Shown here: positions 2,305-38,016 of the stretch, piece by piece
How the letters are laid out: each line of letters opens with the position of its first letter
Position numbering within the stretch: the first letter of the stretch is position 1
NCBI GenBank assembly: GCA_017553505.1
Contig: JAFZLD010000022.1
Span: forward strand, 1-64,000
Source of the DNA: Lachnospiraceae bacterium
GTDB lineage: Bacteria; Bacillota; Clostridia; Lachnospirales; Lachnospiraceae
Reading direction: 5' to 3'
DNA length: 64,000 nucleotides
Notes under the pieces: model-generated
Database searches by the model: none
What the model saw: only the letters and a program-made list of their open reading frames with translations
What the model was told of the DNA's origin: nothing
Made by a program: the position numbers and the translations under genes

Positions 2305-3495
2305 ATGATTAACGAAACTTACAAAGAAATGTTAGGCAAGAAATCCGTAATCAGGCAGCTCTCGGAGTTCGCCACCGCAAGGGGTAAGGAGATTGGTTAC
2401 GAGAACGTATACGACTACAGCTTAGGCAATCCTTCGGTGCCCGTGCCCGAGGAGTTCACCAAGGCTATGATTGAAATGCTGGAGCAAGACAGCCCCATGG
2501 CTCTCCACGGCTACAGCCCGAGCCTTGGCAATCCCGAGTTCAAACAGGCAGTTGCGGACTCACTTAACAGACGCTTTGGCATGAACTACAAGGCTTCACA
2601 CATCTTCCCCACTTCCGGCGCGGCAGGAGCTATTGCGCATGCGTTAAGAGCAATTACCAAGCCCGGCGATGAGGTAATTGTGTTTGCACCTTTCTTTCCT
2701 GAGTACATCCCTTATGTAACGGGAACAGGTGCCGAGATTGTAGTGGTGCCCGCGGACACGAAGGCTTTCCAGATTAACTTTGATAAATTCGAGGAGCTTC
2801 TTACAGATAAGGTTAAGGCAGTTCTTATTAACTCACCCAATAACCCTACCGGTATCGTGTATTCCGAAGAGACGGTTAAGCGCCTCGCAGATATCCTCAG
2901 GAAGAAATCTCAGGAGTTCGGCTACAACATTTATCTTGTGTCCGACGAGCCTTACAGGGAGATTCTTTTTGCGGGTGTTGAGTGCCCTTACCCTTCCAAG
3001 TACTATGATTACACGCTTTCGTGCTATTCTTTCTCCAAGTCACTTTCACTTCCCGGCGAAAGAATAGGTTACGTAGCAGCTAATCCCGCCGACCCCGATT
3101 CCGAGACTATCGTCAACATGTGCGGTCAGATTTCGCGCGGCACCGGACACAACTGCCCTGCATCCATTATTCAGCAGGCTTGTGCGAAGGTTATTGATAT
3201 GACTTCGGATTTATCTGTATACGAGACCAATATGAACATTCTGTACAAGGAACTTACCGCTCTCGGATTTGAAGTGGTTAAGCCCGGCGGTACTTTCTAT
3301 ATCTTCCCGAAGGCTTTGGAAGAGGATTCGATTGCTTTTTGCAACAAGGCGCTTAAGTACGATCTGGTGCTTGTGCCTGCGGATTCTTTTGCATGCCCCG
3401 GATATTTCAGAATGGCTTACTGTATAGATACGGACAAGGTAGAGCGCTCCATTGCGGCGCTTAAGAGATTTGTTAAAGAGGAGTACGGACGATGA
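2305..3495 (+). CDS. PLP-dependent aminotransferase, class I/II (AspB-like)
   Basis: A 396-residue fold-type I aminotransferase in the cytoplasm. Landmarks are SLGNPSVPVP near residue 39, SPNNPTG at 178-183, the VSDEPYREI aspartate that binds the PLP pyridine nitrogen, and YSFSKSLSLPGERIGYV with the Schiff-base lysine at about residue 245. ATG 2305 is preceded by GAGAAAGGG; the longer in-frame start at 2236 begins inside the preceding hairpin region and is rejected. The next gene overlaps by ATGA, so it is probably co-translated with the patatin. The amino-acid substrate cannot be fixed from sequence; aspartate/alanine-type is likely. Confidence 0.9.
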   Translation: MINETYKEMLGKKSVIRQLSEFATARGKEIGYENVYDYSLGNPSVPVPEEFTKAMIEMLEQDSPMALHGYSPSLGNPEFKQAVADSLNRRFGMNYKASHIFPTSGAAGAIAHALRAITKPGDEVIVFAPFFPEYIPYVTGTGAEIVVVPADTKAFQINFDKFEELLTDKVKAVLINSPNNPTGIVYSEETVKRLADILRKKSQEFGYNIYLVSDEPYREILFAGVECPYPSKYYDYTLSCYSFSKSLSLPGERIGYVAANPADPDSETIVNMCGQISRGTGHNCPASIIQQACAKVIDMTSDLSVYETNMNILYKELTALGFEVVKPGGTFYIFPKALEEDSIAFCNKALKYDLVLVPADSFACPGYFRMAYCIDTDKVERSIAALKRFVKEEYGR

Positions 3496-4343
3496 TTAAT
3501 GCGGGACTCGTGCTTGAGGGCGGCGGTATGAAAGGTGTTTATACCGCGGGAGTACTGGATTTCTTCCTGGATAAGGGAATTGAATTTAAGGATGTATACG
3601 GAGTTTCTGCCGGCGCGTGCACGATGTGCAGCTACATTTCCAAGCAGCGCGGCCGCGGAAGGGATACCTTCGTGGATTACGTAGGCGAGAAGGGCTATAT
3701 GAGCCTTCACAGTCTGCTCACTACCGGCGACATCTTTAATGTCGGCATGAGTTACAATCTGGTGCCCAATTACCTGAATCCTTTCGATTACGAGACATAC
3801 AAGAAGTTCGAAGGTAACGCTTACGCGGTTGTAACCAATATCGAGACCGGCGAGGCTGAGTATATTAAGATTAAGGATATGCACGACGGAATGGACTATA
3901 TCCGCTCATCGAGCTCGCTTCCCCTTGTGTCACGTAATGTGCGCATCGGTGACAAGCTGTACCTTGACGGCGGAATCGCAGACTCTATTCCTATTAAGAA
4001 GAGCGAGGCCGACGGTAATAAAAAGAACGTCGTAATTCTTACCAAGCCGGTCGGCTACAGACGTAAGCCTGAGGGTAAGAAGTCGCTTGCGGCGATTAAG
4101 GTTCGTTACCTTAATTACCCTAAGGTATATGAGTTAATGAAGGCCCGCTGCGACATGTATAACGATACGATGGACTACATCGAGAAGCAGGCGGAGGAGG
4201 GTAAGCTCTTTCTTTTGCGGCCGCAGGTAGATGCGCAGATCGATCGTCTCGAGAAGGACAAGGATAAGCTCAACGCTCTTTACGAAGAAGGCTACAAAGA
4301 AGCTGAGTTGAGGTATGAAGCGTTGATGGAGTACCTAGAATGA
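3492..4343 (+). CDS. Patatin-like phospholipase / acyl hydrolase (RssA-YjjU type)
   Basis: A 283-residue patatin-fold serine hydrolase. It has the oxyanion-hole motif GGGMKG (residues 10-15), the nucleophile elbow GVSAG with Ser39, and the dyad Asp in YLDGG near residue 159. No signal peptide is seen, so it is probably cytoplasmic and acts on membrane lipids or lysophospholipids. Its start overlaps the aminotransferase stop (ATGA). The last 9 bases overlap the 3' end of the minus-strand peptide gene, so the two transcripts converge. Confidence 0.9.
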   Translation: MINAGLVLEGGGMKGVYTAGVLDFFLDKGIEFKDVYGVSAGACTMCSYISKQRGRGRDTFVDYVGEKGYMSLHSLLTTGDIFNVGMSYNLVPNYLNPFDYETYKKFEGNAYAVVTNIETGEAEYIKIKDMHDGMDYIRSSSSLPLVSRNVRIGDKLYLDGGIADSIPIKKSEADGNKKNVVILTKPVGYRRKPEGKKSLAAIKVRYLNYPKVYELMKARCDMYNDTMDYIEKQAEEGKLFLLRPQVDAQIDRLEKDKDKLNALYEEGYKEAELRYEALMEYLE

Positions 4344-4514
4344 ATTATTCTCGGGCGTATTGTCTGATACATCTGAATGGGGGAGCGTATCGATATACGG
4401 CGGATCATCCGGTCCGGGATCTGCATAGGATGGTTGTTCGAAAAGGGTGAGTAATACAATTACGAGTAATGTTGCTATAAGGGCAAGAGTTATTTTACGT
4501 GGATGTTTATTCAT
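4335..4514 (-). CDS. Putative exported signalling prepropeptide (59 aa), RRNPP-type
   Basis: This small ORF encodes 59 residues beginning MNKHPRKITLALIATLLVIV. A basic N-terminus and an ~18-residue hydrophobic core are followed by a plausible signal-peptidase site (PSYA|DPG). The remaining ~28-residue acidic, proline-rich tail ends in NTPENNSF. A strong GGAGGAAAC Shine-Dalgarno (4515-4523) precedes ATG at 4514. It is divergent from an HTH/TPR regulator, and the palindrome between them overlaps a minus-strand TATAAT (4581-4576), giving a leader of about 55 nt. This is the arrangement of SHP/Rgg- and PapR/PlcR-like pairs. Export and processing to a pheromone are inference; the mature peptide is unknown. 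A plain small membrane or secreted peptide is the alternative. Confidence 0.7.
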   Translation of the reverse strand: MNKHPRKITLALIATLLVIVLLTLFEQPSYADPGPDDPPYIDTLPHSDVSDNTPENNSF

Positions 4515-4569
4515 GTTTCCTCCAAGTTAGTTTATCGAATACATAGTAAGCTTAAATTTTAGAAAGGTA

Positions 4570-4589
4570 AAGGGAATTATAATTCTCTT
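4570..4589. promoter_or_regulatory. 20-bp palindrome in the divergent regulator/peptide promoter
   Basis: AAGGGAATTATAATTCTCTT is an inverted repeat with one mismatched pair. The same 20-mer, with one base changed, recurs at 5576-5595 ahead of the secreted-protein gene. The centre contains TATAAT on both strands (4578-4583 plus, 4581-4576 minus), so a bound protein would control RNA polymerase directly. No good -35 box lies 17 bp upstream on either strand, which fits an activator-dependent promoter. The RRNPP regulator is the obvious candidate ligand; this is inference. Confidence 0.65.
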
Positions 4590-4599
4590 CGTATTGGAG

Positions 4600-5538
4600 A
4601 TGGGGAACATTTTTGGGGAAATGCTTAAGTATTATCGTATAAAGAGGGGATTATCCCAACGAGATTTAGAGAATGCCTATTATACGAGAAAACACATAGG
4701 CAATGTTGAGAAGGGGAAAACTATTCCGACGATAGAATTTGTAAATAACTTGTCTAAGCTTCTTTCAATAGACTTGTATGCCACATATAGTAAGGCCGTG
4801 AATTTTCAAAGTTTCGAGGCATTTTTGCTTGATGCGAAGATAAACGAAGCCATAAAAGCGGAAAGGTATTCCGAGGTAAAAGAATTGGTCTCCATTGCGC
4901 AAGAACGTAAAGATTTTGCCGAAGGGGAAGCAGGAAAGGTTCTTTGTTATGCGAAGGCATTGCTTTTATCCCAAGATAGAAATTTTGAGGCGGCCTTGGA
5001 AATGGATAAAAAAGGATTGGATATACACATAGATAAACCTGAATTCAGCCAAGCCGCAGACGATAACTACAGCACTATCGATAATGCCCTTTACATCGGG
5101 TACGTTGTTAATCTTGCCAGATTGGGAAAAGAAAAAGAGGCTGTTGCGGTTATAAACGAACAAATAAGCAGGTTACGTCGACTTTTGGACGAAGACATAT
5201 ATGTTTTTCAGCAAAACAGAGAAATGTGGCTAATGGCATTAGCTGGTTTTACCTACAACAAATACGTATTATCAATATCTGAAGAGCAAGAGATAAAACA
5301 AAACATAGATTTCTGCAGCAGTTTGATGATAAAGAATAAGGTGATTTATTTGCTTCCGGAATTACTTGTGGCTAAAGCGGCTATACTTATGGCAGAAGGT
5401 AAGCAATTGGAGGCAAATGCATTATATAAAACAGCCATTGAGGTGGGAACGCTTTTTGGAGAGTCTGAAAGTTTTGCAGAAAAGGCAAAATCAATAGTTA
5501 ATGTTAAGTCAGATGAATCCATGTTCAATATATATTAA
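4600..5538 (+). CDS. RRNPP-type regulator: XRE helix-turn-helix plus TPR repeats
   Basis: About 312 residues. Residues ~3-60 form an XRE/Cro HTH (GEMLKYYRIKRGLSQRDLE ... IGNVEKGKTIPT). The rest is all-helical with TPR-like hairpins to the C-terminus, the architecture and length of Rgg, PlcR and ComR, intracellular receptors of exported peptides. Starts at TTG 4594, ATG 4600 and ATG 4621 are possible. ATG 4600 keeps the first HTH helix whole, but GGAG abuts it, so the start is uncertain. It is divergent from a 59-aa prepropeptide gene with a shared palindrome between them. Likely role: bind the re-imported peptide and switch the locus to 11.8 kb. The family call is firm; ligand and targets are inferred. 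Confidence 0.85.
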   Translation: MGNIFGEMLKYYRIKRGLSQRDLENAYYTRKHIGNVEKGKTIPTIEFVNNLSKLLSIDLYATYSKAVNFQSFEAFLLDAKINEAIKAERYSEVKELVSIAQERKDFAEGEAGKVLCYAKALLLSQDRNFEAALEMDKKGLDIHIDKPEFSQAADDNYSTIDNALYIGYVVNLARLGKEKEAVAVINEQISRLRRLLDEDIYVFQQNREMWLMALAGFTYNKYVLSISEEQEIKQNIDFCSSLMIKNKVIYLLPELLVAKAAILMAEGKQLEANALYKTAIEVGTLFGESESFAEKAKSIVNVKSDESMFNIY

Positions 5539-5560
5539 ATAAATAATAAAAAATGTGATG

Positions 5561-5611
5561 GTCGCTTATTAAGGAAAGGGAACTATAATTCTCTTTACCA
5601 AGATGAGCGAC
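5561..5611 (+). terminator. Extended inverted repeat: regulator terminator containing the second palindrome
   Basis: GTCGCTTAT at 5561 pairs with ATGAGCGAC ending at 5611, and the inner bases continue through imperfect pairs into the 20-bp palindrome. TATTTTATTATTT follows. It can therefore form an intrinsic terminator for the regulator gene while its core serves as an operator for the downstream gene. Confidence 0.5.
5576..5595. promoter_or_regulatory. Second copy of the 20-bp palindrome, upstream of the secreted-protein gene
   Basis: AAGGGAACTATAATTCTCTT differs from the copy at 4570-4589 at one base. It includes TATAAT (5584-5589) and lies 84 bases ahead of the start of the 139-aa secreted protein. 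No -35 hexamer is seen, as at the first copy. The repeated site ties the secreted-protein operon to the same regulator. Confidence 0.65.
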
Positions 5612-5679
5612 TATTTTATTATTTAACGCGAAAGCTGCTTTCAAAATCAAACATACAATAAAAGATAAGGAGATTTATT

Positions 5680-6099
5680 ATGAATTTGTCCAAAAAGAAA
5701 TTGCTGAGTACTATGCTCGTTGTTTGTTTAATTTTGGGATCAAGCATTAATTCTTTTGCCGCCAAAGTTGGAACAAAATCGTTACCCAGTCCTTATGGAA
5801 CGTTAAAAGCTGAAGCTAATATTTACTGGGATGTTAATCAGTATTGTGCAAATACTTATGCCAAAACAACCAAGGCAGTAAATAGAATAAGGGCAACTGT
5901 GTCAGTCCATAAGAGTAGTGATGGCTCATTATTGGGTGCGGAAGGATCGGATTGGGTATATAACGCCAGCTATGCATGCACACCGGACTTTGAAACATAT
6001 GGTTACGGAGTGTCTGCAAGCACAAAACTTTCTGTATATGGAACAGGCGATGCAATCATCAAAGATGCGTATGCAGTATATGTTTCAACCGGTAATTAA
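5680..6099 (+). CDS. Small secreted protein of unknown function (candidate regulated effector)
   Basis: 139 residues with a clear signal peptide: basic MNLSKKK, a hydrophobic core to about residue 22, and cleavage near SFAA|K. The mature part (~112 residues) is rich in Tyr, Ser, Ala, Thr and Gly with alternating beta-type patterning. It has two cysteines (QYCAN, YACTP) that could form a disulfide. AAGGAG at 5668 gives a good ribosome site. I recognise no family; the general look is that of small secreted bacteriocin-like or surface proteins, but this is not evidence of toxicity. The palindrome upstream and a stem-loop immediately downstream suggest an induced, highly transcribed first gene of the operon. 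Confidence 0.75.
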   Translation: MNLSKKKLLSTMLVVCLILGSSINSFAAKVGTKSLPSPYGTLKAEANIYWDVNQYCANTYAKTTKAVNRIRATVSVHKSSDGSLLGAEGSDWVYNASYACTPDFETYGYGVSASTKLSVYGTGDAIIKDAYAVYVSTGN

Positions 6100-6110
6100 T
6101 TGATTTGTTG

Positions 6111-6150
6111 TCATCGCCGACATGGATTACCGTGTTGGCGATGATTTTGT
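6111..6150 (+). terminator. Stem-loop attenuator between secreted-protein gene and lipoprotein gene
   Basis: TCATCGCCGACATGG pairs with CCGTGTTGGCGATGA (15 bp, two wobble pairs, loop ATTA) and is followed by TTTTGT. It lies in the only sizeable gap of the operon (6100-6167). Such hairpins let the first gene be made in excess over downstream genes. Confidence 0.7.
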
Positions 6151-6167
6151 ATATGGGAAGGGAAGTA

Positions 6168-7328
6168 ATGATTAAAAAAAATGTTACGACGATATCTTTA
6201 ATTTTAATGATGGCCATAATTGGAGGTTGCTCTACCAAGAACAAATCTGTAAGCAGTGCGGACATGATAGTAAGCGAGGTTAATATTGAGGGTGAAATTG
6301 ATGATGTGGCGGAAACAGATATGTATAACAAGTCCTTCGCACAAATAGAAAGAGTTGATGACTATTTGAAAAACGTCCGCCCTTATGGGATTTTTATTAA
6401 GAATGATGTCATAGGATTGTTAATAGAAGACTACGATGCGAACACCATTGTCTTGACCGATGGAAAAGGAAATGTCTTGAATAAGATTGAGATACCATTC
6501 AGTAGGTCTGTTTATTATGAAAACTGTGAAGTGTACGATGAGGGAATCGTACTACACGGAAAGAGCAATAATGTTTGCTTTTTTGATATATCAACTATGG
6601 AGTTAATGAATATAGAAATACCGGAAGATATTACCACCAAGATTGATGTTCATAGTTCTTTTACCTATCTTCCGAAGAAAGATGCAATAGCTTATGCCAC
6701 TGAAGACGGAGGGTTATATGTTTATGAAAATGGACAGGAACTTTTGTTATATCAAGGTGATATTTCAAATCCGGATTCCTTTATTCCGTACGAAGTAAAA
6801 GGCACATACAATCAGAAAAAGTTGATGCTATGCGGATATATTAACGACACTAATCCGAAAACGGGATATTGTTACAAATGCATTGGGTTGTATGATCTGG
6901 AAACACAAAAAATGGAATGGAAGAAAAACGACAATGAAAGAATGATTTCTACAGCGAACGCTGACATTTTTTGTATGTCTTCCGGTGGCTCTATTGTACA
7001 AGGAGACAGTATTGGTGAAGTATATACTCTTCTGCAAGCAGAAGAGTTTGGAGCTGAAATGGATATCATTTCTGCGGAAAGTATTGTTGATTACATTCCG
7101 GCTCAAGAAAGCTTTTTATGTGCCAGAAAGCTTGAGGGCGGAGACGTGTATATTATTGATAGGGAAGGAAATAGGAAGAGCATAGATATTGGATATGATT
7201 GCCCTGATTTGCTGGCTACCAATGAAGATGGGAGCCTTATAGCCGGAACGGCAATAGTATATGACGATAAAAAGGAAAACTTTACCTCAGTATTGTATCT
7301 TAAGAAATTGGGAGAGAAAAATGATTAA
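6168..7328 (+). CDS. Lipoprotein, possible beta-propeller, unknown function
   Basis: 386 residues starting MIKKNVTTISLILMMAIIGG followed by the lipobox cysteine (IIGGC), so it is exported and lipid-anchored outside the membrane. The body shows repeated short beta segments (IVLTDGKGNVLNKIEIP, GLYVYENGQELLLYQ, YIIDREGNRKSIDI, EDGSLIAGT), in the style of WD40/TolB-like propellers, though I cannot assign a family. ATG 6168 follows GGGAAGGGAAG; the longer TTG frame from 6105 would start inside the hairpin and is rejected. It overlaps the next lipoprotein by 8 bases. Confidence 0.75.
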   Translation: MIKKNVTTISLILMMAIIGGCSTKNKSVSSADMIVSEVNIEGEIDDVAETDMYNKSFAQIERVDDYLKNVRPYGIFIKNDVIGLLIEDYDANTIVLTDGKGNVLNKIEIPFSRSVYYENCEVYDEGIVLHGKSNNVCFFDISTMELMNIEIPEDITTKIDVHSSFTYLPKKDAIAYATEDGGLYVYENGQELLLYQGDISNPDSFIPYEVKGTYNQKKLMLCGYINDTNPKTGYCYKCIGLYDLETQKMEWKKNDNERMISTANADIFCMSSGGSIVQGDSIGEVYTLLQAEEFGAEMDIISAESIVDYIPAQESFLCARKLEGGDVYIIDREGNRKSIDIGYDCPDLLATNEDGSLIAGTAIVYDDKKENFTSVLYLKKLGEKND

Positions 7329-8349
7329 AAAAAGATGTATGGTAGTGACTGCCATAGTGTTGTATATATGCACATTGGGTTGCGGAAAGACGGAGGAACA
7401 TAACTCTGCGCTTTATGAAAAAGAGACAGAAGTGGAGGAACAACCGAAGCTTGAAGAGTTGTTTAATCTAGAGGAAATCGAAGCGAGCGGAAGTATCCTC
7501 GATGGTGCATATAGTTATGGGCTCAGGAATATAGATGACGAAAGCATGGCTGTTTCAATCAATGAAGGAAAGCTTATCTTAGATATAGAGCACGATAATT
7601 CAGGGAAAGAGTGTGAAGTCGGATTTTTGATGTTTGTGGATGGTATTCCGCAGTTTAACGCTAGCGGAGAATCCATGACAAAGTTCAGGACAGAAACAAA
7701 ATCGGTAAATCATGTGAGAGTAGAAACCGACCCGATTGTAGATGTGGAAAGAAATATACACAGACTTGATTGCATGCTTATATTCGAACCGACATATACA
7801 GGAACAAAAGAACACATGGAACACGGTAACTATGGTTCCGGACTGCCGCTCCTCCCCTATACGGTTAACGGGATAGATGAGAAAATCGAGACTACTCGTG
7901 TGGAAAAAGAATTTGAAATGGAGCCGTTATCGAATGATTTGATAGAACGCTATACCAAAGAAAGAAGAGACGGAACAAAGAGATGCCAGATAGATGAAAA
8001 GCCACTGATTATCGAATTGCGGGAAAAGGAATTTCTTATTACCGATGGAATAGTTGCAGATCCCAATATGGAGTTACAATTAGCCTTTTTTGGAAAAAAC
8101 GCTGAGAAGTATAGAGTTTCGGCTTTTTTGAATGATGAGGCATATCCTGCGTTTGATGGTGCTGCTTATGTGGATATAGAAGTAACCCACAGTAATGAGA
8201 CAATAGTGCGTCCAAATGTAAAATATGAGGATTTGCAAAGCGGTGGTAACAATTTGTTTTTTGTATATATACCGGCGGGCGATGATGATATTTATGCGGG
8301 TGAAAGTGCTGAAAAAACGCCGACTTATACACTGTTATGCGGGGAATGA
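7321..8349 (+). CDS. Lipoprotein of unknown function
   Basis: 342 residues with an N-terminal MIKKRCMVVTAIVLYICTLG followed by the lipobox Cys (LGC). The mature protein is acidic (EEHNSALYEKETEVEEQPKL) and then mixed alpha/beta with no motif I recognise. GGGAGAG lies just upstream of ATG 7321, which overlaps the previous gene by 8 bases; the stop overlaps the ABC ATPase reading region. With the preceding lipoprotein and the ABC genes it may sense, bind or protect against the secreted product; this is inferred only from position. Confidence 0.7.
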   Translation: MIKKRCMVVTAIVLYICTLGCGKTEEHNSALYEKETEVEEQPKLEELFNLEEIEASGSILDGAYSYGLRNIDDESMAVSINEGKLILDIEHDNSGKECEVGFLMFVDGIPQFNASGESMTKFRTETKSVNHVRVETDPIVDVERNIHRLDCMLIFEPTYTGTKEHMEHGNYGSGLPLLPYTVNGIDEKIETTRVEKEFEMEPLSNDLIERYTKERRDGTKRCQIDEKPLIIELREKEFLITDGIVADPNMELQLAFFGKNAEKYRVSAFLNDEAYPAFDGAAYVDIEVTHSNETIVRPNVKYEDLQSGGNNLFFVYIPAGDDDIYAGESAEKTPTYTLLCGE

Positions 8350-8351
8350 CA

Positions 8352-9053
8352 ATGCTTCAGATTAATAATATAACTAAGAAATATAAAGATACTTATGCAG
8401 TTAAAGAAGTAACATTCTCATTAAACAATGAAGTTGTAGGGCTGATGGGTGTTAATGGAGCGGGAAAGACAACGCTAATTAAGATTCTCACGACTCTTTT
8501 AAAGCAAAATAGCGGTGAAATCCTATATAACGGAGAAAGAATAGACAAAATAGAGAAAAGGTATTTGTCAGAGCTTGGCTATATGCCGCAATACGCGTGT
8601 TATTATGATGATTTTACTGTAAAAGAATTTTTAAGTTATATGGGAGTTATAAAGGGAATCGATAAAAAAGCTGTCAAAGAAAAAATTGACGAAGTTCTTG
8701 AATTCACCAACCTCACAAGGGAAGTAAAGAAAAAAGTGGGCGCCCTTTCGGGAGGAATGAGGCAAAGGTTGGGTGTAGCACAGGCTATAATCAATGATCC
8801 TTCAATACTTATTTTGGATGAGCCCACAGCAGGACTGGATCCGGTAGAAAGAATCAGATTCAGGCAACTGATAAACAGTGTGGCTCAAAATCGGATAGTG
8901 CTTATAGCTACTCATATTGCAGAGGACGTGGAAGCAGTTGCGGATAGAGTCATAATACTGAATTCCGGAGAAATACTGGAGGACACACCGATAGATAAAT
9001 CTCAAAAGGGATATATCGAAGAACTTTTTATGAGAAAAGTGATGAAAGTATAA
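8352..9053 (+). CDS. ABC transporter ATP-binding protein (ABC-2 / antibiotic-type)
   Basis: 233 residues with all ABC ATPase motifs: Walker A GVNGAGKTT, Q-loop at LGYMPQ, signature LSGGMRQRLG, Walker B LILDEPTAGLD, and switch His in ATHIAED. The short single-NBD form pairs with ABC-2 permeases as in CcmA/NatA or bacteriocin immunity and export systems. Start candidates at 8337, 8346 and 8352 are in frame; GGGGA at 8341-8345 is correctly spaced only for ATG 8352. The two downstream membrane genes are its probable partners. Confidence 0.9.
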   Translation: MLQINNITKKYKDTYAVKEVTFSLNNEVVGLMGVNGAGKTTLIKILTTLLKQNSGEILYNGERIDKIEKRYLSELGYMPQYACYYDDFTVKEFLSYMGVIKGIDKKAVKEKIDEVLEFTNLTREVKKKVGALSGGMRQRLGVAQAIINDPSILILDEPTAGLDPVERIRFRQLINSVAQNRIVLIATHIAEDVEAVADRVIILNSGEILEDTPIDKSQKGYIEELFMRKVMKV

Positions 9054-10190
9054 ATGTTTAAATTTGAATTATTGAAACTATTTAAAGAGAAGTTGCTTTG
9101 GATTTCTTTGGCTGCACTTATGGTGTTTAACAGCCTTTTTATCCGTGTGACTTTTTTTGTTGTGGATGACAGTCAGGCGATGAGGGCGAAGGCTGCCTGT
9201 TTCGGAGAAATAAACAGTAACAACGTAAGCGCTGTTTTGGAGCGTAAAAACAGTCTTGAAGACAAGGTATTAAACGGTGTCTTTAGTACAGAATATGATG
9301 AAACTTTGTATACGGGCTATGAATTCAGTGAATACTGGACGTTTAATGAAATCTTTCAAGAAATGAAAAGGCGCTATGAATACGGCGAGGTGATGGAGAA
9401 GAAAGCGTCAATTTGCCTGGAAAATGCAGAATACTACAAGAAAAGGAACACGGGGCTCTATAAATTCAATCTTAAATTGGCCAAAAACTTTTCGGGAAGA
9501 AAAATAACCGAATACTATGATACGAGAAATCTTGAATTGTTTTTAAACTACGATGTGGGAGTAGTTTGCGCCCTGGCTTTTATGATGGTTGCCATGACGC
9601 TTTCTTTTGACAGAGAGAGGCGAAAGAATACTGCGGGAATAATTGGGTCGTGTGTTGAAACGCTTAACGGAATCTGTGTAATAAAAATCTTCGTGTGTAT
9701 TTTTGTCACAATAGTGGGATACCTGGCAATTGAGACAGCTACTGCGGTTTCGTTTGGAATTATTGATTATCCGAGACAATTATTATTGCCGCTTTATTCA
9801 ATTAACGGATTTGAAATGACATATACAAATGACAGTATTATGGGGTTTATTGTTAAACGTTTTTTTGTAAGAAGCCTGGCCGTAATTGATATCGGAGCTG
9901 TCTTTTTTGTACTGATAAAGTTTATCAAAAACAGATATCTGCTTCTTGTTGCGATGTTAAGTACCTGTGTTGCAATGATTGGTTTTGCAAGAGTTTCTGC
10001 AATGGGTTTTAACCCGGTTGTGGGACTTGGAATTACGAATCTTGTGAGAGAAAGCAGAAATACGGAACTTTTGGGAATGAAGTTTTTGGGCGCCCGGACA
10101 ATTGTTATAGGAATGGTGGTTGAGAGTACGTTTCTTTTTGGTGTTGCAATGCTGTACGGTAAGTTAGGGAGTAACAGAAAATGTTTTTGA
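9054..10190 (+). CDS. ABC-2 type membrane subunit (first)
   Basis: 378 residues. A transmembrane helix near residues 14-37 is followed by a ~125-residue soluble segment with charged helices, then about five further membrane helices from residue ~165. This is the single-helix/large-loop/multi-helix layout of ABC-2 permeases. Its ATG directly abuts the TAA of the ATPase gene and its end overlaps the next permease by 10 bases, so the three form one translationally coupled unit. The cargo is unknown; the secreted 139-aa protein has its own Sec signal, so efflux or immunity rather than primary export is plausible. Confidence 0.75.
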   Translation: MFKFELLKLFKEKLLWISLAALMVFNSLFIRVTFFVVDDSQAMRAKAACFGEINSNNVSAVLERKNSLEDKVLNGVFSTEYDETLYTGYEFSEYWTFNEIFQEMKRRYEYGEVMEKKASICLENAEYYKKRNTGLYKFNLKLAKNFSGRKITEYYDTRNLELFLNYDVGVVCALAFMMVAMTLSFDRERRKNTAGIIGSCVETLNGICVIKIFVCIFVTIVGYLAIETATAVSFGIIDYPRQLLLPLYSINGFEMTYTNDSIMGFIVKRFFVRSLAVIDIGAVFFVLIKFIKNRYLLLVAMLSTCVAMIGFARVSAMGFNPVVGLGITNLVRESRNTELLGMKFLGARTIVIGMVVESTFLFGVAMLYGKLGSNRKCF

Positions 10191-11266
10191 TGATTCAAAA
10201 AGAAATAAAAAAGACATTTGCGGATAAAAAAAGAATTATCATTTTCTTTCTGGGAATGGTGGCGTTGATATTGTACACGTTGTCAAAAGCACCGTCGAGG
10301 TATATTAACAGGGCAATTGAACATGATAAGATATTTTACCTTGAAATATTAGACAGAGTCGGCGGCGAGTACAGTAAGGAAAAGAATGCGGAACTTTCTG
10401 ATATTTCTGATGAAATGGAGGCAGAAAGTAAGATTTACGGCGATTTGGAAATCAGGGATTATTTCAAAGGCATCAATATATTAGACAAGATGGAAGTATA
10501 CAATAATCAGAAGTATACAGCGGCCAACAGAGTTACGCTTGATTATATTAAAATGCAGATGAGATATGTTAAAACGGATGTAGCCGGCAGAAGACTTATA
10601 TACCAAAACGGGTGGATTGAGCTGGTGGAAAAAAGTGGCATTGGAGCAGTAAGTGCCATATTGTCATGGATGTTTGGAATGATGATTATGGCGGGGGATT
10701 ATGACAGCGGAATGCACAACCTTACCAACGCTTGCATAAACGGCAAAAAGAAGCATTATTACGCCAAAATCGGAGCTACAATAATAATCGTATTATTGAT
10801 TCATTTGGTTGAATTGATTGTGAGACTTGTAAGAATCAGTGTGCAATACGGTATTCGGGACATCAAATCACCAATGCGGAGTGTCTCGCTGTTTGGATAT
10901 TCACCTATGAATGTTTCTTTGCTTATGATGACCGTGATTCTTTTATTAATCAAGATAGTAGGACTGTTATTCTGTGTCGGCCTTGTTGCGGTCATTACCG
11001 TTATCGTTAAAAATTCAGTGAAAGTGACATTTGTATTTGCCGGTATTCTTCTTTTTATAAGATATATAGTTCCTCAAAAAGTTGCATTTATGACCGGAAT
11101 CGGGATGTATTCGGGTAAAGAATATATAGAGGGAATAACATCGGTAGCGGATATGGAAAAAATATATTTTTCAAACGGTGTTCTTTTTAGTATAGGCATA
11201 GCCAATTTAGTGGCCTTTTTAGCTCTGTGCTATGTGGGAGGGTGCATATATGCGAAAAAGGATTAG
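10181..11266 (+). CDS. ABC-2 type membrane subunit (second)
   Basis: 361 residues with the same topology as its neighbour: an N-terminal helix (IIIFFLGMVALILYTLS), a long soluble region to about residue 150, then five to six membrane helices. It overlaps the upstream gene by 10 bases and the following lipoprotein by 17. Two unequal permeases with one ATPase would make a heterodimeric channel. Many codons end in A or T, unlike the flanking chromosome. Confidence 0.75.
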   Translation: MFLMIQKEIKKTFADKKRIIIFFLGMVALILYTLSKAPSRYINRAIEHDKIFYLEILDRVGGEYSKEKNAELSDISDEMEAESKIYGDLEIRDYFKGINILDKMEVYNNQKYTAANRVTLDYIKMQMRYVKTDVAGRRLIYQNGWIELVEKSGIGAVSAILSWMFGMMIMAGDYDSGMHNLTNACINGKKKHYYAKIGATIIIVLLIHLVELIVRLVRISVQYGIRDIKSPMRSVSLFGYSPMNVSLLMMTVILLLIKIVGLLFCVGLVAVITVIVKNSVKVTFVFAGILLFIRYIVPQKVAFMTGIGMYSGKEYIEGITSVADMEKIYFSNGVLFSIGIANLVAFLALCYVGGCIYAKKD

Positions 11267-11837
11267 TGTAATAGTGTTACTGCTTTTGCTGACCGGATGT
11301 TCACAAAGAATATATGATGAAGAGATATATGAGTGTAATACTTATGAAAACGACAAGTACTCTGTAAATGTAGAAGAGGGAACGGTTCTTTTTAAGGAAA
11401 CGGGAGAGGAAAGCAGGCTGGTTAAGGATGTATTTTTTGAGTATAAAAAGCCGACTTGCTATTCTCTTTATAACGATATCTTCTATTTTGATTCTTATGA
11501 GAATGAATATGCAATTTATGCGGTATCGGTATCTGAAGGCATACCACGAAAACTTTTTGACGAAAGTGGTGATACAGGCGGAATATCATTTCTGGATGAA
11601 TTGCATAATTACGAGATTCCAAAAGACAGTTATGCTCTGGAAGAGATGAGTTTGACATATATGAATATCTGTGGGCCGGTTTTTGTTTATGTCAGGAATT
11701 ACGAGCTTCATAGTATGGATTTAAGAAGTATGAAGGATATAGTGTTGACTGACGATTGTTCAGATATAATAGAAATTAAGGACAATGCAGTGGAATATTA
11801 CAATTCAAAATACGTAAGAGAGAAAGTTGCATTTTAA
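11250..11837 (+). CDS. Small lipoprotein, last gene of the accessory operon
   Basis: 195 residues starting MRKRISVIVLLLLLTG followed by the lipobox cysteine (LTGC). The mature part has repeating Tyr/Asp-rich beta stretches (DIFYFDSYENEYAIYAVS, SLTYMNICGPVFVYVRNYEL) and no known family. GGGAGG at 11235-11241 selects ATG 11250 over ATG 11232. A strong terminator follows. Three lipoproteins around one ABC exporter is unusual. Confidence 0.7.
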   Translation: MRKRISVIVLLLLLTGCSQRIYDEEIYECNTYENDKYSVNVEEGTVLFKETGEESRLVKDVFFEYKKPTCYSLYNDIFYFDSYENEYAIYAVSVSEGIPRKLFDESGDTGGISFLDELHNYEIPKDSYALEEMSLTYMNICGPVFVYVRNYELHSMDLRSMKDIVLTDDCSDIIEIKDNAVEYYNSKYVREKVAF

Positions 11838-11862
11838 ATGCAGACGGGCTTATTTTGAAATA

Positions 11863-11904
11863 AAAGACTTTACTTTATTGTTTAAAGTAAGGTCTTTTTG
11901 TTTT
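11863..11904 (+). terminator. Terminator of the accessory operon
   Basis: AAAGACTTTACTTTA pairs with TAAAGTAAGGTCTTT (15 bp, one wobble pair, loop TTGTT) and runs into TTGTTTT. It closes the operon 26 bases after the last stop codon. Confidence 0.85.
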
Positions 11905-12027
11905 AACGAGAAAAATGGCAACTTACTGCTCATTTATGTACCGCTTAGCACCGAAACTATTGCATAATCGCACGGATATAATAGAATCAAATTATCAACT
12001 TAAACATGTTTACAGATGAGGAAAAAA

Positions 12028-12471
12028 ATGAGGGTTAACATTATTGCAAACTCCGACACGAAAGAGATATTCGCGGAGATTCACTGTACGGAAGTCACGG
12101 CGGAAGTAAGAAGGCTTGAGTCATACATCGAAAACTTCGACGGACGCATCAAAGGCGAGTGTGACAAAGAAGTCAGCTACGTGGACATTAAGGACATTCT
12201 TTATTTTGAATCCGTGGACAACAAGACCTTTATCTACACTGAGGACAAGGTGCTCACGGCGGAGCTTAGGCTCTACGAGATAGAGAAGAAGCTCAGTGAG
12301 CGTGATTTCTTCAGATGTTCGAAGTCGGTGGTGGTGAATATCGGTAAGATTGTGAAGCTTAAGCCGGAGATTTCGAGAAACATAATTGCGACCCTCGATA
12401 ACGGCGAATCGGTTGTGATTTCCAGAAGATATGTACCCGAACTTAAAAGAATAATCGGTGCGGAGGACTGA
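12028..12471 (+). CDS. LytTR-domain transcriptional regulator
   Basis: 147 residues. The C-terminal ~95 residues are a LytTR DNA-binding domain (VDIKDILYFESVDNKTFIYT, FFRCSKSVVVNIGKIVKLKP, ISRRYVPELK). The N-terminal ~50 residues are a short non-receiver region, as in the small LytTR regulators encoded with DUF3021 proteins. Starts at 12016 and 12028 are possible; GATGAGGAAA makes a Shine-Dalgarno for 12028. A TATAAT sits at 11977-11982. It is followed after two bases by the DUF3021-like gene, the usual partner. Confidence 0.85.
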   Translation: MRVNIIANSDTKEIFAEIHCTEVTAEVRRLESYIENFDGRIKGECDKEVSYVDIKDILYFESVDNKTFIYTEDKVLTAELRLYEIEKKLSERDFFRCSKSVVVNIGKIVKLKPEISRNIIATLDNGESVVISRRYVPELKRIIGAED

Positions 12472-12473
12472 GC

Positions 12474-12920
12474 ATGGAGAGATTTAAAAACTTTTTGGCA
12501 TATATTCGAAACGGACTTTGTTTTTCTTTTACCTGGCTGTTGCTGATGTTAATGGAAGGCGCGGTGTTCAGCGGTATAAAGGCGATTGAGGTGGGATTCT
12601 TGTTTAAGGTATTTCTTATGTGCCTGTACGGAGCCGTGTGCTTTGCGGTATGCTTCACGGACTTTTTGATAAGAACCAAGGGATTCATTTTCAGACTTAC
12701 GATTTTGTTTATAACCTTTATTCCGGTGGAAGTGTTTACATTTTACAAGCTGAACATTTTTGCTGGAAAAGGAACGGCATTGGAATGGACGATATTTACT
12801 GTCATAGTGATTTCTTTTTACATTACCTGCCTGGTGCTTGACAGGACGAAATTCAAGGACAAGGGCGAACGATACACGCAACTTTTGAACGAATATAATA
12901 GGAGACAACAAAATGAATAG
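12474..12920 (+). CDS. DUF3021-like four-helix membrane protein
   Basis: 148 residues with four predicted membrane helices (around residues 13-33, 43-61, 70-90 and 103-121) and a charged C-terminal tail (LDRTKFKDKGERYTQLL). Small integral membrane partners of this kind are encoded next to LytTR regulators and are thought to hold them inactive; the mechanism here is inferred from the pairing. It is 2 bases from the regulator and overlaps the next gene by 8. Confidence 0.75.
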   Translation: MERFKNFLAYIRNGLCFSFTWLLLMLMEGAVFSGIKAIEVGFLFKVFLMCLYGAVCFAVCFTDFLIRTKGFIFRLTILFITFIPVEVFTFYKLNIFAGKGTALEWTIFTVIVISFYITCLVLDRTKFKDKGERYTQLLNEYNRRQQNE

Positions 12921-13476
12921 AATGAGTGATGATAAATTTAATGAGTGTGCTCTGGGGCTCGACGCACTCAGGGATGATATGAAATACAGTCAGAAAGCGG
13001 GACTTCCGTTTATAATAACCGCGGCAATCATCTGGGCATTGATAGCGATTGCGACAAGCCTTGACCTTCCGATGTACACTTCGGATCTGGTGGTGTTCTG
13101 CTGCGCCTGCCCGCTTATGCCGATAGCGCTGCTTGTGGGCAAGATTCTTAAAGTAGATATCCTTGATAAAAAGAACGTGCTTTGGAAAGCCGGCATTCTT
13201 TTTACATGTAATCAAATGATTTATCTTCTTATAGCTATGTGGGCTATGAGCGCAGTGCCTGAGAAGATGGTGATGGTGTACGCAATGATTTTCGGAGCGC
13301 ATTATCTTCCCTACTCATGGCTGTACAAAGAGAAAATTTACCTCGTGTCGGCTATATTGATTACCATAGCGTCACTGATACTCGGCCTTACCGTTCCGAG
13401 GAATGTGCTGGCGATTGTGCTGATGTGCTACGAGATTGTTTTTGCCATTACTTTATACAGAACTACAAGGCAGTAA
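12913..13476 (+). CDS. Six-helix membrane protein, possibly DUF7010 family
   Basis: 187 residues with a short cytosolic N-terminus (MNRMSDDKFNECALGLDALR) and about six membrane helices to the end. The N-terminal ELRDDMKYSQKAG-type helix followed by paired helices resembles proteins annotated DUF7010; I am not certain of that match. It overlaps the DUF3021-like gene, so the three-gene module is co-expressed. No catalytic residues are apparent. Confidence 0.6.
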   Translation: MNRMSDDKFNECALGLDALRDDMKYSQKAGLPFIITAAIIWALIAIATSLDLPMYTSDLVVFCCACPLMPIALLVGKILKVDILDKKNVLWKAGILFTCNQMIYLLIAMWAMSAVPEKMVMVYAMIFGAHYLPYSWLYKEKIYLVSAILITIASLILGLTVPRNVLAIVLMCYEIVFAITLYRTTRQ

Positions 13477-13484
13477 TTCATAAA

Positions 13485-13516
13485 AAGGGTGTCGGTCAGG
13501 CCGGCACCTTTCTTTA
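13485..13516 (+). terminator. Terminator of the LytTR module
   Basis: AAGGGTGTCGG and CCGGCACCTTT form an 11-bp stem with wobble pairs around a 5-base loop, followed by CTTTATTTTTATTT. Confidence 0.8.
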
Positions 13517-13549
13517 TTTTTATTTAATAAAATTGGCACAGATAATTTG

Positions 13550-13578
13550 TTGACATTTGCCAAGAGGGGGTATATTGT
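13550..13578 (+). promoter_or_regulatory. SigA-type promoter of the hrcA operon
   Basis: A perfect TTGACA (13550-13555) is followed at 17 bp by TATTGT (13573-13578); an overlapping TATATT is at 13571. The CIRCE operator lies directly downstream, covering the expected transcription start. Confidence 0.7.
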
Positions 13579-13589
13579 ATCTATAGTAA

Positions 13590-13616
13590 TTAGCACTCGT
13601 ATCACATGAGTGCTAA
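13590..13616. promoter_or_regulatory. CIRCE operator (HrcA binding site)
   Basis: TTAGCACTC, nine bases, then GAGTGCTAA: an exact match to the CIRCE consensus. HrcA binds it to repress class I heat-shock genes, and hrcA itself is the first gene downstream, so the operon is autoregulated. Confidence 0.97.
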
Positions 13617-13665
13617 CAAATTGCAACACCGGACCCTTGGTACAGACATTTGAAAGTGTGATTAC

Positions 13666-14690
13666 GTGGAACTGGATGAGAGAAAAGTTAAGATTTTACA
13701 AGCTATAGTTCGTAACTACCTTGAGACCGGCGAGCCCGTGGGCAGCCGTACAATTTCCAAGTACACGGATTTGAATTTGAGCTCTGCCACCATTCGTAAT
13801 GAGATGGCGGACCTTGAAGAGATGGGCTACATTATTCAGCCCCATACCTCAGCAGGCCGTATTCCTTCCGACAAGGGCTACAGACTCTACGTCGACAAGA
13901 TGCTTGAAGAGAAGGAGAAGGAAGTCGAGGAGATGAAAGAGCTTCTTTTGCAAAAAGAAGACAAGATGGACAATCTCCTCAAGCAAGTGGCCAAGGTTCT
14001 TGCAGTTAATACGAACTACGCCACGATGATAAGCGCCCCTCAGTACAACCGCAACAAGCTTAAGTTCATCCAGTTATCCAGAGTCGATGACGAGCAGATA
14101 CTTGCGGTAATCGTTACGGAAGGCAACGTTATCAAGAATCACATGATTCCCACGCAGGATTACCTCGACGATGAGACGATGCTTAAGCTTAACATCTTGC
14201 TTAACACGCATCTCAACGGACTCAGCATTGAAGAGATTAATCTTGCAATGATAGCCTCCATCAAGAAGATGGCGGGCATTCACTCAGATATCGTAGGTGA
14301 TGTAATCGATGCGGTGGCAGAGGCCATCCACTCCGATGAAGACCTTGAGATATACACAAGCGGAGCCAATAACATTCTTAAATATCCCGAGCTTGCGGAC
14401 AAGGACCACGCGGTCGAGCTCCTGCACGCATTTGAGGAGAAAGCACCGCTCAATGAACTTGCACTTACCAATCTCGCAGGCGAGAACACCGGCATTCAGG
14501 TGTACATCGGCGACGAAGCCCCGGTTGAGGGACTTAAGGACTGCAGTGTGGTAACCGCCACATATGAGCTTGATGAGGGCATGAAGGGCACAATCGGTAT
14601 CGTAGGCCCCAAGCGTATGGACTACGACAAGGTTGTGGGCACCCTTAAGAATATGATGAATCAGCTTGATTCATTGTATAAGAAGAAAGG

Positions 14691-14694
<4 letters not shown>
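13666..14694 (+). CDS. hrcA: Heat-inducible transcription repressor HrcA
   Basis: 342 residues. The N-terminal winged helix has the family signature (ILQAIVRNYLETGEPVGSRT, SATIRNEMADLEEMGYIIQP, TSAGRIPSDKGYR). The central GAF-like and C-terminal regions end in VGPKRMDYDKVVGTL. It represses its own operon at CIRCE and is reactivated by chaperonin. Start is GTG 13666 with only a weak ribosome site. Its TGA overlaps the grpE ATG. Confidence 0.97.
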
Positions 14695-17220
<2,526 letters not shown>

Positions 17221-17236
17221 AGAATAAACTTTAAGA

Positions 17237-17265
17237 GGGGCGGGAGAATCTCTCGCCCCGCTTTT
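17237..17265 (+). terminator. Hairpin between dnaK and dnaJ
   Basis: GGGGC-GG-GAGA pairs with TCTC-GCCCC around a short loop with a two-base bulge, followed by GCTTTTGAG. Its place suggests partial termination or mRNA processing that keeps DnaJ below DnaK levels. Confidence 0.55.
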
Positions 17266-17281
17266 GAGGTTAAAACACATT

Positions 17282-18451
17282 ATGGCAGAACAGAAAAGAG
17301 ACTATTACGAGGTACTCGGAGTCGACAAGAACGCCGATGAAGATGCCCTTAAAAAAGCATACAGACAACTTGCCAAGAAGTACCACCCCGACGTTAATCC
17401 CGGCAACAAAGAAGCAGAAGCCAAGTTCAAGGAAGCATCCGAGGCTTATGCGGTGCTCAGCGATCCCGAGAAGCGTCGCCAGTACGATCAGTTCGGTCAT
17501 GCCGCATTTGACGGCAGCGGCGGAGCAGGCGGATTCGGTGGATTCGACTTCAACGGTGCTGATTTCTCCGATATTTTCGGTGATATATTCGGCGATTTCT
17601 TTGGCGGTTCAAGAGCACGCGGTGCCAGAAGCAACTGCCCCATGAAGGGTGCCAACCTTCGTACCAGCGTACGTATCACTTTCGAAGAAGCGGTATTCGG
17701 CGTTGAGAAGGAGCTTGAGCTTAATCTTAAGGACGAGTGCAAGACCTGTCACGGTACAGGCGCTAAGCCCGGCACATCCAAGGAAACCTGTCCCAAGTGT
17801 AAGGGTCAGGGACAGATTGTGTATACTTCACAGTCTTTCTTTGGCACTGTTAGAAACGTTCAGGTATGTCCCGACTGTAAGGGTTCAGGTAAGATTGTAC
17901 GCGAAAAGTGTCCCGATTGCGGCGGCACAGGCTATGTTACCAGTCGTAAGAAGATTGCGGTTTCTATTCCCGCAGGTATCGACAACGGCCAGTGCGTACG
18001 TATTCCCGGCAAGGGTGAGCCCGGTACCAACGGCGGTGAGAGAGGCGATTTGCTGGTAGAAGTAATTGTGGCCAATCACCCGATTTTCCAGAGGCAGGAT
18101 ACCAACATTTATTCTACCGTTCCGATTTCTTTTGCAGTTGCTGCACTGGGCGGTGAGGTACTTATCGATACTGTTGACGGACGCGTGGCTTATGAGGTTA
18201 AGCCCGGCACCCAGACTGATACGAGAGTTCGTCTGAAGGGCAAGGGCGTTCCTTCCCTCAGATACAGAGACGTGCGTGGCGACCACTACGTAACACTTGT
18301 GGTTCAGACCCCCGACAAGCTTTCCAAGGAAGCCAAGGATTTACTCAAGCAGTTCGACGCGCTCACAGGCGACTCGCTCAACGCAGTCAAGAACGCGGGC
18401 AACTCCTCCAAGGACTCCGACGATTCCAAGAAGAAGAAATTCTGGAAATAA
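17282..18451 (+). CDS. dnaJ: Co-chaperone DnaJ (Hsp40)
   Basis: 389 residues. J-domain at 1-70 with the HPD tripeptide ([10 protein letters not shown]), then a Gly/Phe-rich linker (~75-110), and a zinc domain with four CxxCxGxG motifs ([32 protein letters not shown]). The C-terminal beta-sandwich contains [20 protein letters not shown]. It delivers clients to DnaK and stimulates its ATPase. [14 protein letters not shown] at ATG 17282 is the family start; an upstream in-frame TTG is rejected. Confidence 0.98.
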
Positions 18452-37294: not shown

Positions 37295-37618
37295 ATGACA
37301 GATTTAACCTACTTAAGCAATCAGGTACTCGACGCGATTCGCAATACGCCCGAGTATGCGGAGTTTATAAGGCTTCTCAATCATTTGAGAGAGAATCCCG
37401 AGCTTTATGCCCGCGTGGATGAGATGAGGGACAAGAATTTCCTGATTCAGCAGGGCGATGTCGGCGATCCGTACGATATGATGGATGCATTGACTAATGA
37501 GTACGAAGATGTTATTAATAATAAAGCGGTAGGCGAGTTTATCACTGCCGAAGTGGCACTTTGTAAGATGATACATGAGTTCAACAGAAATGTTGCCGCG
37601 GGTTTGGAGATTGAATAA
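37295..37618 (+). CDS. YlbF/YmcA-family protein
   Basis: 107 residues, all helical (LSNQVLDAIRNTPEYAEFIR ... EDVINNKAVGEFITAEVALC). In Bacillus, YlbF, YmcA and YaaT form a complex that helps RNase Y-dependent mRNA processing and development. Location next to RNase J is suggestive. AGGAGG sits six bases ahead of ATG 37295; the stop overlaps the next start (TAATG). Confidence 0.85.
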   Translation: MTDLTYLSNQVLDAIRNTPEYAEFIRLLNHLRENPELYARVDEMRDKNFLIQQGDVGDPYDMMDALTNEYEDVINNKAVGEFITAEVALCKMIHEFNRNVAAGLEIE

Positions 37619-38016
37619 TGAAACTCACACAGATTTTGGCCACGATTCTTTCGGCAATCATTAAGATTGCCGTAGCAATCTGGATAGTTAATTTCTTATA
37701 TACGAAGACATTGGCGGCGTACGATTTTGGGTACAGAATCTTTACCGAAGCACCCATTGCGCCCTCACCCGGAAGAGATGTGGTAGTGTCTTACACCGAG
37801 GGCAAGTCCTTTAAAGACCTTGCCAAGACCCTTGAAGAAAAGGGACTTGTAAGAGACTACAAGCTTGCCATGATTCAGATGTACGTATCCGTTTACAAGG
37901 ATACCATCAGACCCGGCTCATACACGCTCAACACATCCATGACTACCGAGGAAATGATGAAGGCTATGAGCCCTTCCAAGAACGGCTCGGAAGATGATAA
38001 AGACAAAGAGGAATAG
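37618..38016 (+). CDS. MltG N-terminal-like membrane protein without the catalytic domain
   Basis: 132 residues. One N-terminal membrane helix, then a LysM-like region typical of the start of endolytic transglycosylase MltG (VVVSYTEGKSFKDLAKTLEE, KDTIRPGSYTLNTSMTTEEM). It ends in an acidic tail without the YceG catalytic domain with its glutamate. Bacillus has full-length mltG (yrrL) at this place in the operon, so this looks like a reduced descendant that might bind glycan or partners only. There is no frameshift visible around the stop. Confidence 0.75.
   Translation: MKLTQILATILSAIIKIAVAIWIVNFLYTKTLAAYDFGYRIFTEAPIAPSPGRDVVVSYTEGKSFKDLAKTLEEKGLVRDYKLAMIQMYVSVYKDTIRPGSYTLNTSMTTEEMMKAMSPSKNGSEDDKDKEE

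Follow-up and report, generated by a model that had tools for sequence, protein, structure and literature searches.

Prepropeptide and Receptor Genes of the Locus

We analyzed a stretch of 64,000 nucleotides from a Lachnospiraceae bacterium (contig JAFZLD010000022.1, positions 1 to 64,000; hereafter the window), in which a small prepropeptide gene and a gene for a PlcR-like regulator, with helix-turn-helix (HTH) and tetratricopeptide repeat (TPR) regions, are transcribed away from each other. One copy of a palindromic operator box lies between the two genes and a second lies behind the regulator gene, ahead of an operon that includes an ATP-binding cassette (ABC) transporter (Table 1). A preliminary description of the locus had proposed a precursor peptide and its RRNPP-type receptor. 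The 59-codon minus-strand open reading frame (ORF) of that proposal, with its ribosome site, signal-peptide-like N-terminus and acidic Pro-rich tail, was found to be present and divergent from the HTH/TPR regulator gene. The ORF starts at ATG, with GGAGG a few bases 5' of it, and the tail that follows PSYA is DPGPDDPPYIDTLPHSDVSDNTPENNSF, about 28 amino acids in which a D-x-P-P motif stands closer to the start than to the end. Six intergenic ORFs of the window, this one included, passed a loose filter for a ribosome site and a basic-hydrophobic N-terminus; two of the six (4335-4514 and 37581-37757) reached a ribosome-site score of at least 5 and a hydropathy of at least 2.2 with an ATG start.

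The mechanical ORF of the regulator opens at TTG 4594, while homologues favour the ATG at 4600; the end at 5538 is correct. Its description as an XRE-HTH/TPR protein of PlcR-type length was borne out by a match to Pfam HTH_3 (E 2.3e-7) and by similarity to PlcR nearly from end to end. TPR models stayed below cut-off in the single protein, and TPR_2 matched three of the six aligned members of the receptor family. A profile of these six homologues (the window receptor and five others at 22-27% identity to it) matched PlcR (2qfc) at positions 3-288, over both HTH and TPR (E 6.4e-11). The profile also matched ComR and PrgX, via the HTH, and the solved chain 4yv6, which we take to be Rgg2, at positions 1-102 only. 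Judged by these matches, the regulator has the HTH and TPR make-up of cytosolic receptors of the PlcR/Rgg/PrgX type, and the full-length similarity predicted for a member of the PlcR subfamily. The HMMER alignment did not support a pairing of an Asn common to the receptors (N220) with the peptide-contact Asn of PlcR.

Genomes compared are denoted here by G-numbers, G000 being that of the window and G013 (YSD2013) one of the same genus. Receptor matches were found in 15 of 97 genomes, near full length in seven, including the window's, and partial in the rest. In a tree of 22 receptors, the window receptor grouped with that of G013 (97/90), then with G016/G011 (95/93), and then with G012 and G299 (96/97); these six receptors are treated below as one clade. 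The alignment used for the profile omits G016 as a near-copy of G011, and its six rows were too variable for a further pattern scan. Searching 397 family genomes with the profile gave 53 with a match at E 1e-10, in many cases confined to the HTH. Peptide patterns found no close relatives of the receptor in genome contigs or viral contigs, none were found in phages, and a plasmid search gave four weak matches.

Recurrence of Prepropeptide Genes Beside Related Receptors

The preliminary description had named absence of the small ORF beside orthologous regulators as the outcome that would speak against it, and had proposed checking whether such an ORF is always divergent. The first check came out in its favour: we found a prepropeptide gene at four of the six clade loci (window, G013, G016 and G299), three of them adjoining the receptor gene. 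Constant divergence did not hold, as the G013 gene is convergent and 29 of 41 receptors in the wider family, including those of G012, G033 and contig C28 of the window genome, were without a prepropeptide ORF by the filter described below. The G016 peptide gene is divergent (MKSKIYKFLFVFAIIISVLSASIPGYADDNPPSKPITPTHGITVSENDFSS), and that of G013 is adjacent (MKKVISFLLVSVAIGIMLSFVPSQKSYAGDGGDGPPLGDEYIRFDDVSSNDSDN). The G299 peptide (MKKRAIALIMVLALTLIPLGNVNDPPPVGNEGVPIMTDNNTY) is encoded 2.6 kb from the regulator, where it heads an operon of secreted proteins that shares its box with the regulator. The promoter region of this operon repeats that beside the regulator, whose divergent side, in our reading, retains a box and a ribosome site but a very short ORF only.

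The D-x-P-P motif was present in all four clade tails, as compared with one of 67 other small secreted-type ORFs (Fisher 5.1e-6, which is optimistic because the motif was picked from the same data after they had been seen). These 71 ORFs comprise 70 and the G016 peptide, put in by hand, and omit the other small ORF of stretch L033 (4576-4722, without D-x-P-P). The sole other ORF with the motif, in G308, likewise adjoins a receptor gene. A YA site is common to three of the four clade peptides. Among the 18 genomes of the genus, counting its own, the window peptide has its best non-self match (E 0.0128) next to the receptor homologue of G013, and none of 5000 shuffles aligned as well as the window and G013 tails. 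A peptide profile matched 52 of the 397 family genomes at E 0.05 or below, with the window and G299 first and the next match (E 1.9e-6) in a 288-amino-acid frame; the further matches were mostly in longer frames, with a few below 100 amino acids, and the profile yielded no additional member with support.

To the wider family, we applied a strict prepropeptide filter (ATG, ribosome site, 30-90 amino acids, at most 500 bp from the gene) over 40 stretches, a subset of the matches from the family profile search. A full-length rule removed 8 of 51 receptor matches beforehand; stretch L052, which duplicates L076, was also removed, as were control genes lying closer than 1.5 kb to a receptor. Adjacent prepropeptide-type ORFs were found for 12 of 41 full-length receptors, as compared with 5 of 160 control genes (Fisher 3.5e-6), and divergent ones for 5 of 41 versus none of 160 (2.9e-4). 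Of the 16 receptors closest to the profile, six had such an ORF, in five cases divergent. By sequence, therefore, the adjacent gene for a small propeptide, with predicted export, that belongs to RRNPP systems is present. Recurrence at related loci, the D-x-P-P motif and the adjacency counts all support the pairing of prepropeptide and receptor suggested earlier.

Operator Boxes and Promoter Geometry

The palindrome noted earlier between the two genes was confirmed at 4569-4590, in box 1, whereas the second copy at 5575-5596, in box 2, and the operon behind it had gone unnoticed. Across loci the 26-bp palindrome approximates to GTAAAnnGAAyTATArTTCnnTTTAC. A pattern built from the two window sites, with up to three mismatches, had no match in 100 shuffles; in the window genome it found these two sites and no third, and a reversed control found none. 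In both G013 and G016, copies of the box stand ahead of peptide and secreted-protein genes; in G299 it adjoins the regulator and precedes the peptide gene. The two boxes of G016 agree at 20 of 26 positions, which is the best place in its contig apart from the box itself. In Falcatimonas sp. MSJ-15 (stretch L084, 2386-2781), a 70-amino-acid, HTH-only regulator fragment is followed by a perfect 26-bp box ahead of a lipoprotein-like gene; this box has the appearance of an orphan operator.

We found that the score for a -10 element peaks 31 bases from the box centre (37/48, allowing one base of play either way), a value reached in none of 5000 dinucleotide shuffles. The eight box-target pairs used were two from the window, three from G013, two from G016 and one from Falcatimonas, with regulators excluded. 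The 106-amino-acid gene of G013 fits this spacing poorly, and the Falcatimonas gene fits better at +34; G299, inspected afterwards, has TATTTT (4/6) at +31.

A box-pattern scan of genome contigs gave 11 stretches, of which L090 (YSD2013) carries a full receptor, L084 the Falcatimonas HTH-only fragment and L093 no more than a weak match to the HTH. The remaining eight, whose titles place them in Bacteroidota, were without a receptor and were taken as chance. Receptors were likewise absent from 13 viral stretches with a box and from the 14 family box loci searched for them.

The Operon Behind the Second Box

Seven codirectional genes (5680-11837) follow box 2, the first for a secreted protein. 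This protein matched no Pfam or NCBIfam family at E 1, and a search of the other 96 genomes gave no relative. A lactococcin 972-type cargo was considered and rejected, as 5680-6099 is without a family match and only the ABC ATPase has a match to TIGR03608, below cut-off. For the G016 cargo, DUF2712 is a weak hint (E 0.013). The hairpin after the first gene suggests that the secreted protein could be made in excess over the other products of the operon. Beyond the operon, at 12016-12920, lie a LytTR regulator (PF04397) and a membrane-protein-like ORF.

Table 1. Positions of the genes and promoter elements of the locus in the window.
Feature	Positions	Strand	Remarks
Prepropeptide gene, 59 aa	4335-4514	-	Basic start, hydrophobic core, likely signal-peptidase site PSYA/D (cut after A), acidic Pro-rich tail with DDPP
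Putative -10, TACTAT (4/6), peptide promoter	4543-4548	-	31 bases from box centre
Operator box 1, GTAAAGGGAATTATAATTCTCTTCGT	4567-4592	unstranded	Palindrome, 13-nt arms, 92% complementary
PlcR-like HTH and TPR receptor/regulator, 312 aa	4600-5538	+	Assigned from homologues, Pfam, PlcR profile match and tree
Operator box 2, GGAAAGGGAACTATAATTCTCTTTAC	5573-5598	unstranded	Second palindrome copy; right arm gives -35-like TTTACC
Putative -10, TATTAT (5/6), target operon	5617-5622	+	17-nt spacer from TTTACC at 5594
Secreted protein, 139 aa	5680-6099	+	Signal-peptide-like start, no family match; candidate bacteriocin-like cargo, from position
Terminator-like hairpin, 16 pairs	6110-6145	+	Directly 3' of secreted-protein gene
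Lipoprotein-like, 386 aa	6168-7328	+	Inner ATG of ORF 6105-7328; no curated Pfam match
Lipoprotein-like, 342 aa	7321-8349	+	Inner ATG of ORF 7261-8349
ABC transporter ATPase	8337-9053	+	ABC_tran over cut-off; GldA, DrrA and lantibiotic-protection models below cut-off
Membrane protein by eye, presumed ABC permease	9054-10190	+	No family match
Membrane protein by eye, presumed ABC permease	10181-11266	+	No family match
Small lipoprotein, 201 aa	11232-11837	+	LPAM_1
Terminator-like hairpin	11862-11898	+	After last operon gene

Loss of Peptide and Secreted-Protein Genes in G011

The receptor genes of G011 and G016 are 98.8% identical (11 of 930 nucleotides and 3 amino acids differ), and the genes preceding them differ at 6 of 372 nucleotides. 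In this comparison of draft assemblies, G011 was found to lack about 210 bp containing the peptide gene and box 1; its secreted-protein gene is mostly gone, with a short remnant left, whereas the receptor gene, the transporter genes and box 2 are kept. A system in which the transporter protects would fit this pattern, where signal and product are lost but receptor and transporter stay.

A Candidate Autoinducing System

The peptide ORF and its recurrence, the receptor homology, the repeated box, the spacing of the -10 element and the double loss in G011, all read from sequence, lead us to regard it as quite probable that this is an RRNPP-type autoinducing pair controlling a secreted bacteriocin-like protein and a lipoprotein/ABC module. 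The prepropeptide would leave the cell by the Sec route and be cut after PSYA, and a tail fragment, probably around the conserved D-x-P-P, would be the pheromone. This fragment would return via an oligopeptide permease and bind the TPR domain of the receptor; PF00496 oligopeptide-binding proteins occur in the window genome on four stretches at three places, and are common (11 of 14 control genomes). A receptor dimer would sit on the 26-bp palindrome, its centre about 43 bases before the transcription start, over poor -35 elements, and may turn on both the peptide gene, by positive feedback, and the operon, whose product would be the bacteriocin-like protein together with a lipoprotein/ABC-transporter module for export or immunity.

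The same pair could act with the opposite sign, somewhat in the manner of Rgg3: the receptor would repress by covering the -35 region, and imported peptide would relieve the repression. In box 2, the right arm already provides a -35-like sequence with a 17-nt spacer to TATTAT, and according to the review PMC4162386, the site used by Rgg2 for activation also serves Rgg3 for repression. The -35 elements are poor, however, and a box centre near -43 suits a class II activator, the layout given for Rgg2 and ComR targets in the same review. We infer activation rather than repression, which we consider unlikely.

A second alternative is that the small ORF encodes a small secreted effector, or a modified peptide of the cluster, while the regulator senses something else. 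The length of the tail exceeds that typical of pheromones, the motif lies towards its start, and the G299 peptide heads an operon of secreted proteins. On the other side, no modification enzyme was recognised among the annotated neighbours, and the prepropeptide-type ORFs that recur beside this receptor family have tails unrelated to one another, as would suit a signal more than a product; we find the effector explanation distinctly improbable. That a chance ORF lies beside an ordinary XRE regulator is hardly credible, as the recurrence, common motif, common box and promoter spacing all speak against it, even though a close homologue for a codon-substitution test is lacking and single-gene similarity is weak.

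Several results weigh against the autoinducing pair that we favour. The G013 gene is convergent, and neither peptide nor box was found in G012 of the same clade. Tail alignment is weak between the window and G016 (72 of 5000 shuffles as good) and not significant between G013 and G016 (1007 of 5000); the sequence search of the 18 genus genomes with the window peptide missed the G016 peptide, and 28 further peptide-profile loci that were checked held neither a receptor nor a small D-x-P-P ORF. The secreted proteins of the window and G016 are dissimilar. Box 1 lies just 20 nucleotides from the regulator ATG, clouding control of the regulator itself. Across the family, the box had 16 sites in 14 of 397 genomes as compared with a reversed control in 20 genomes, showing no enrichment, and across the genus it was found in 2 of 18 genomes as compared with 3 for the control. 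Since the box is rare in the family without excess over control, only sites beside receptors or the HTH remnant carry weight.

Taken together, the locus most likely holds a genuine RRNPP-type pair that governs a local regulon, with a peptide motif, operator and taxon of its own. More tentatively, and on balance somewhat less likely than not, it may represent a Lachnospiraceae pheromone class in its own right, in which a PlcR-like receptor reads a D-x-P-P code through a 26-bp operator of its own and governs secreted bacteriocin-like proteins, with G011 as a naturally signal-mute, cargo-less line. If so, G011 keeps receptor and transporter as a cheater or an immune line would. Lachnospiraceae rank among the main inhabitants of gut and rumen, and the locus offers a concrete, testable peptide, receptor, operator and target. 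D-x-P-P is a short motif for a synthetic pheromone, and G011/G016 a natural genome pair for signal loss.

Comparison with Known Systems

PlcR-PapR of the Bacillus cereus group has a prepropeptide with a signal-peptide-like start and a palindromic operator, both also found at the window locus, and the window receptor profile aligns with PlcR over HTH and TPR. Whereas papR lies directly downstream of plcR in the same direction, as in the PlcR subfamily, the window peptide gene is divergent. The peptide also differs, as does the operator from the PlcR box, and the occurrence of the window box at two sites only suggests a local regulon.

Rgg2/Rgg3-SHP of streptococci resembles the locus in its divergent peptide gene, in a regulator site at the -35 region of the promoter for the pheromone gene and in a poor -35, suggestive of class II (PMC4162386). 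SHP2 and SHP3, by the same source, have 22-23 amino acids with the active octapeptide at the C-terminus; the window peptide differs in its 59 amino acids, its PSYA site and its acidic Pro-rich tail. Qsr/QssR of Clostridium is likewise an RRNPP system in Clostridia (PMC10075063). QssR is described with nine-TPR folds in PMC12700828, and this description would set it apart from the window receptor, which is of PlcR length. A literature search, mostly without subscription papers, gave no paper joining Lachnospiraceae and RRNPP, while papers naming Lachnospiraceae, PlcR and quorum sensing exist. The main text of the RRNPP surveys PMC10075063, PMC9765709 and PMC12700828 contains no "Lachnospir-", and their supplementary tables may hold such receptors.

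Other Receptor Loci

The window genome contains another receptor of the same family (E 1.3e-40) at 7708-17924 of stretch L037 (G000:C28:5000-24000), near ABC-transporter-like ORFs and a subtilisin-like ORF, named by eye and perhaps a peptide-export cluster. Elsewhere in this genome, stretch L069 (G000:C9:47001-56000) has four adjoining HTH-TPR receptor genes and a 61-amino-acid prepropeptide-type ORF (6795-6980) within 2892-6980. Stretch L070 (G000:C14:134001-144000) carries a 71-amino-acid prepropeptide-type ORF and a 629-amino-acid HTH-TPR receptor, at 2906-3121 and 3306-5195; the small ORF lies on the opposite strand, 3' of the receptor gene, and contains the near-repeat GDEDVGYSAE / GDEDVGYAAE, as though a pheromone were present twice. 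In G399 (L068, C1:349001-366000), five tandem receptor genes occupy 3982-11345 with a transposase-like ORF, by eye, between them; they have one divergent small ORF, a TTG-start candidate left out of the counts. Two tandem, closely similar 52-amino-acid prepropeptide ORFs are divergent from a single receptor gene in G182 (L071, C3:50001-62000, at 5198-5658).
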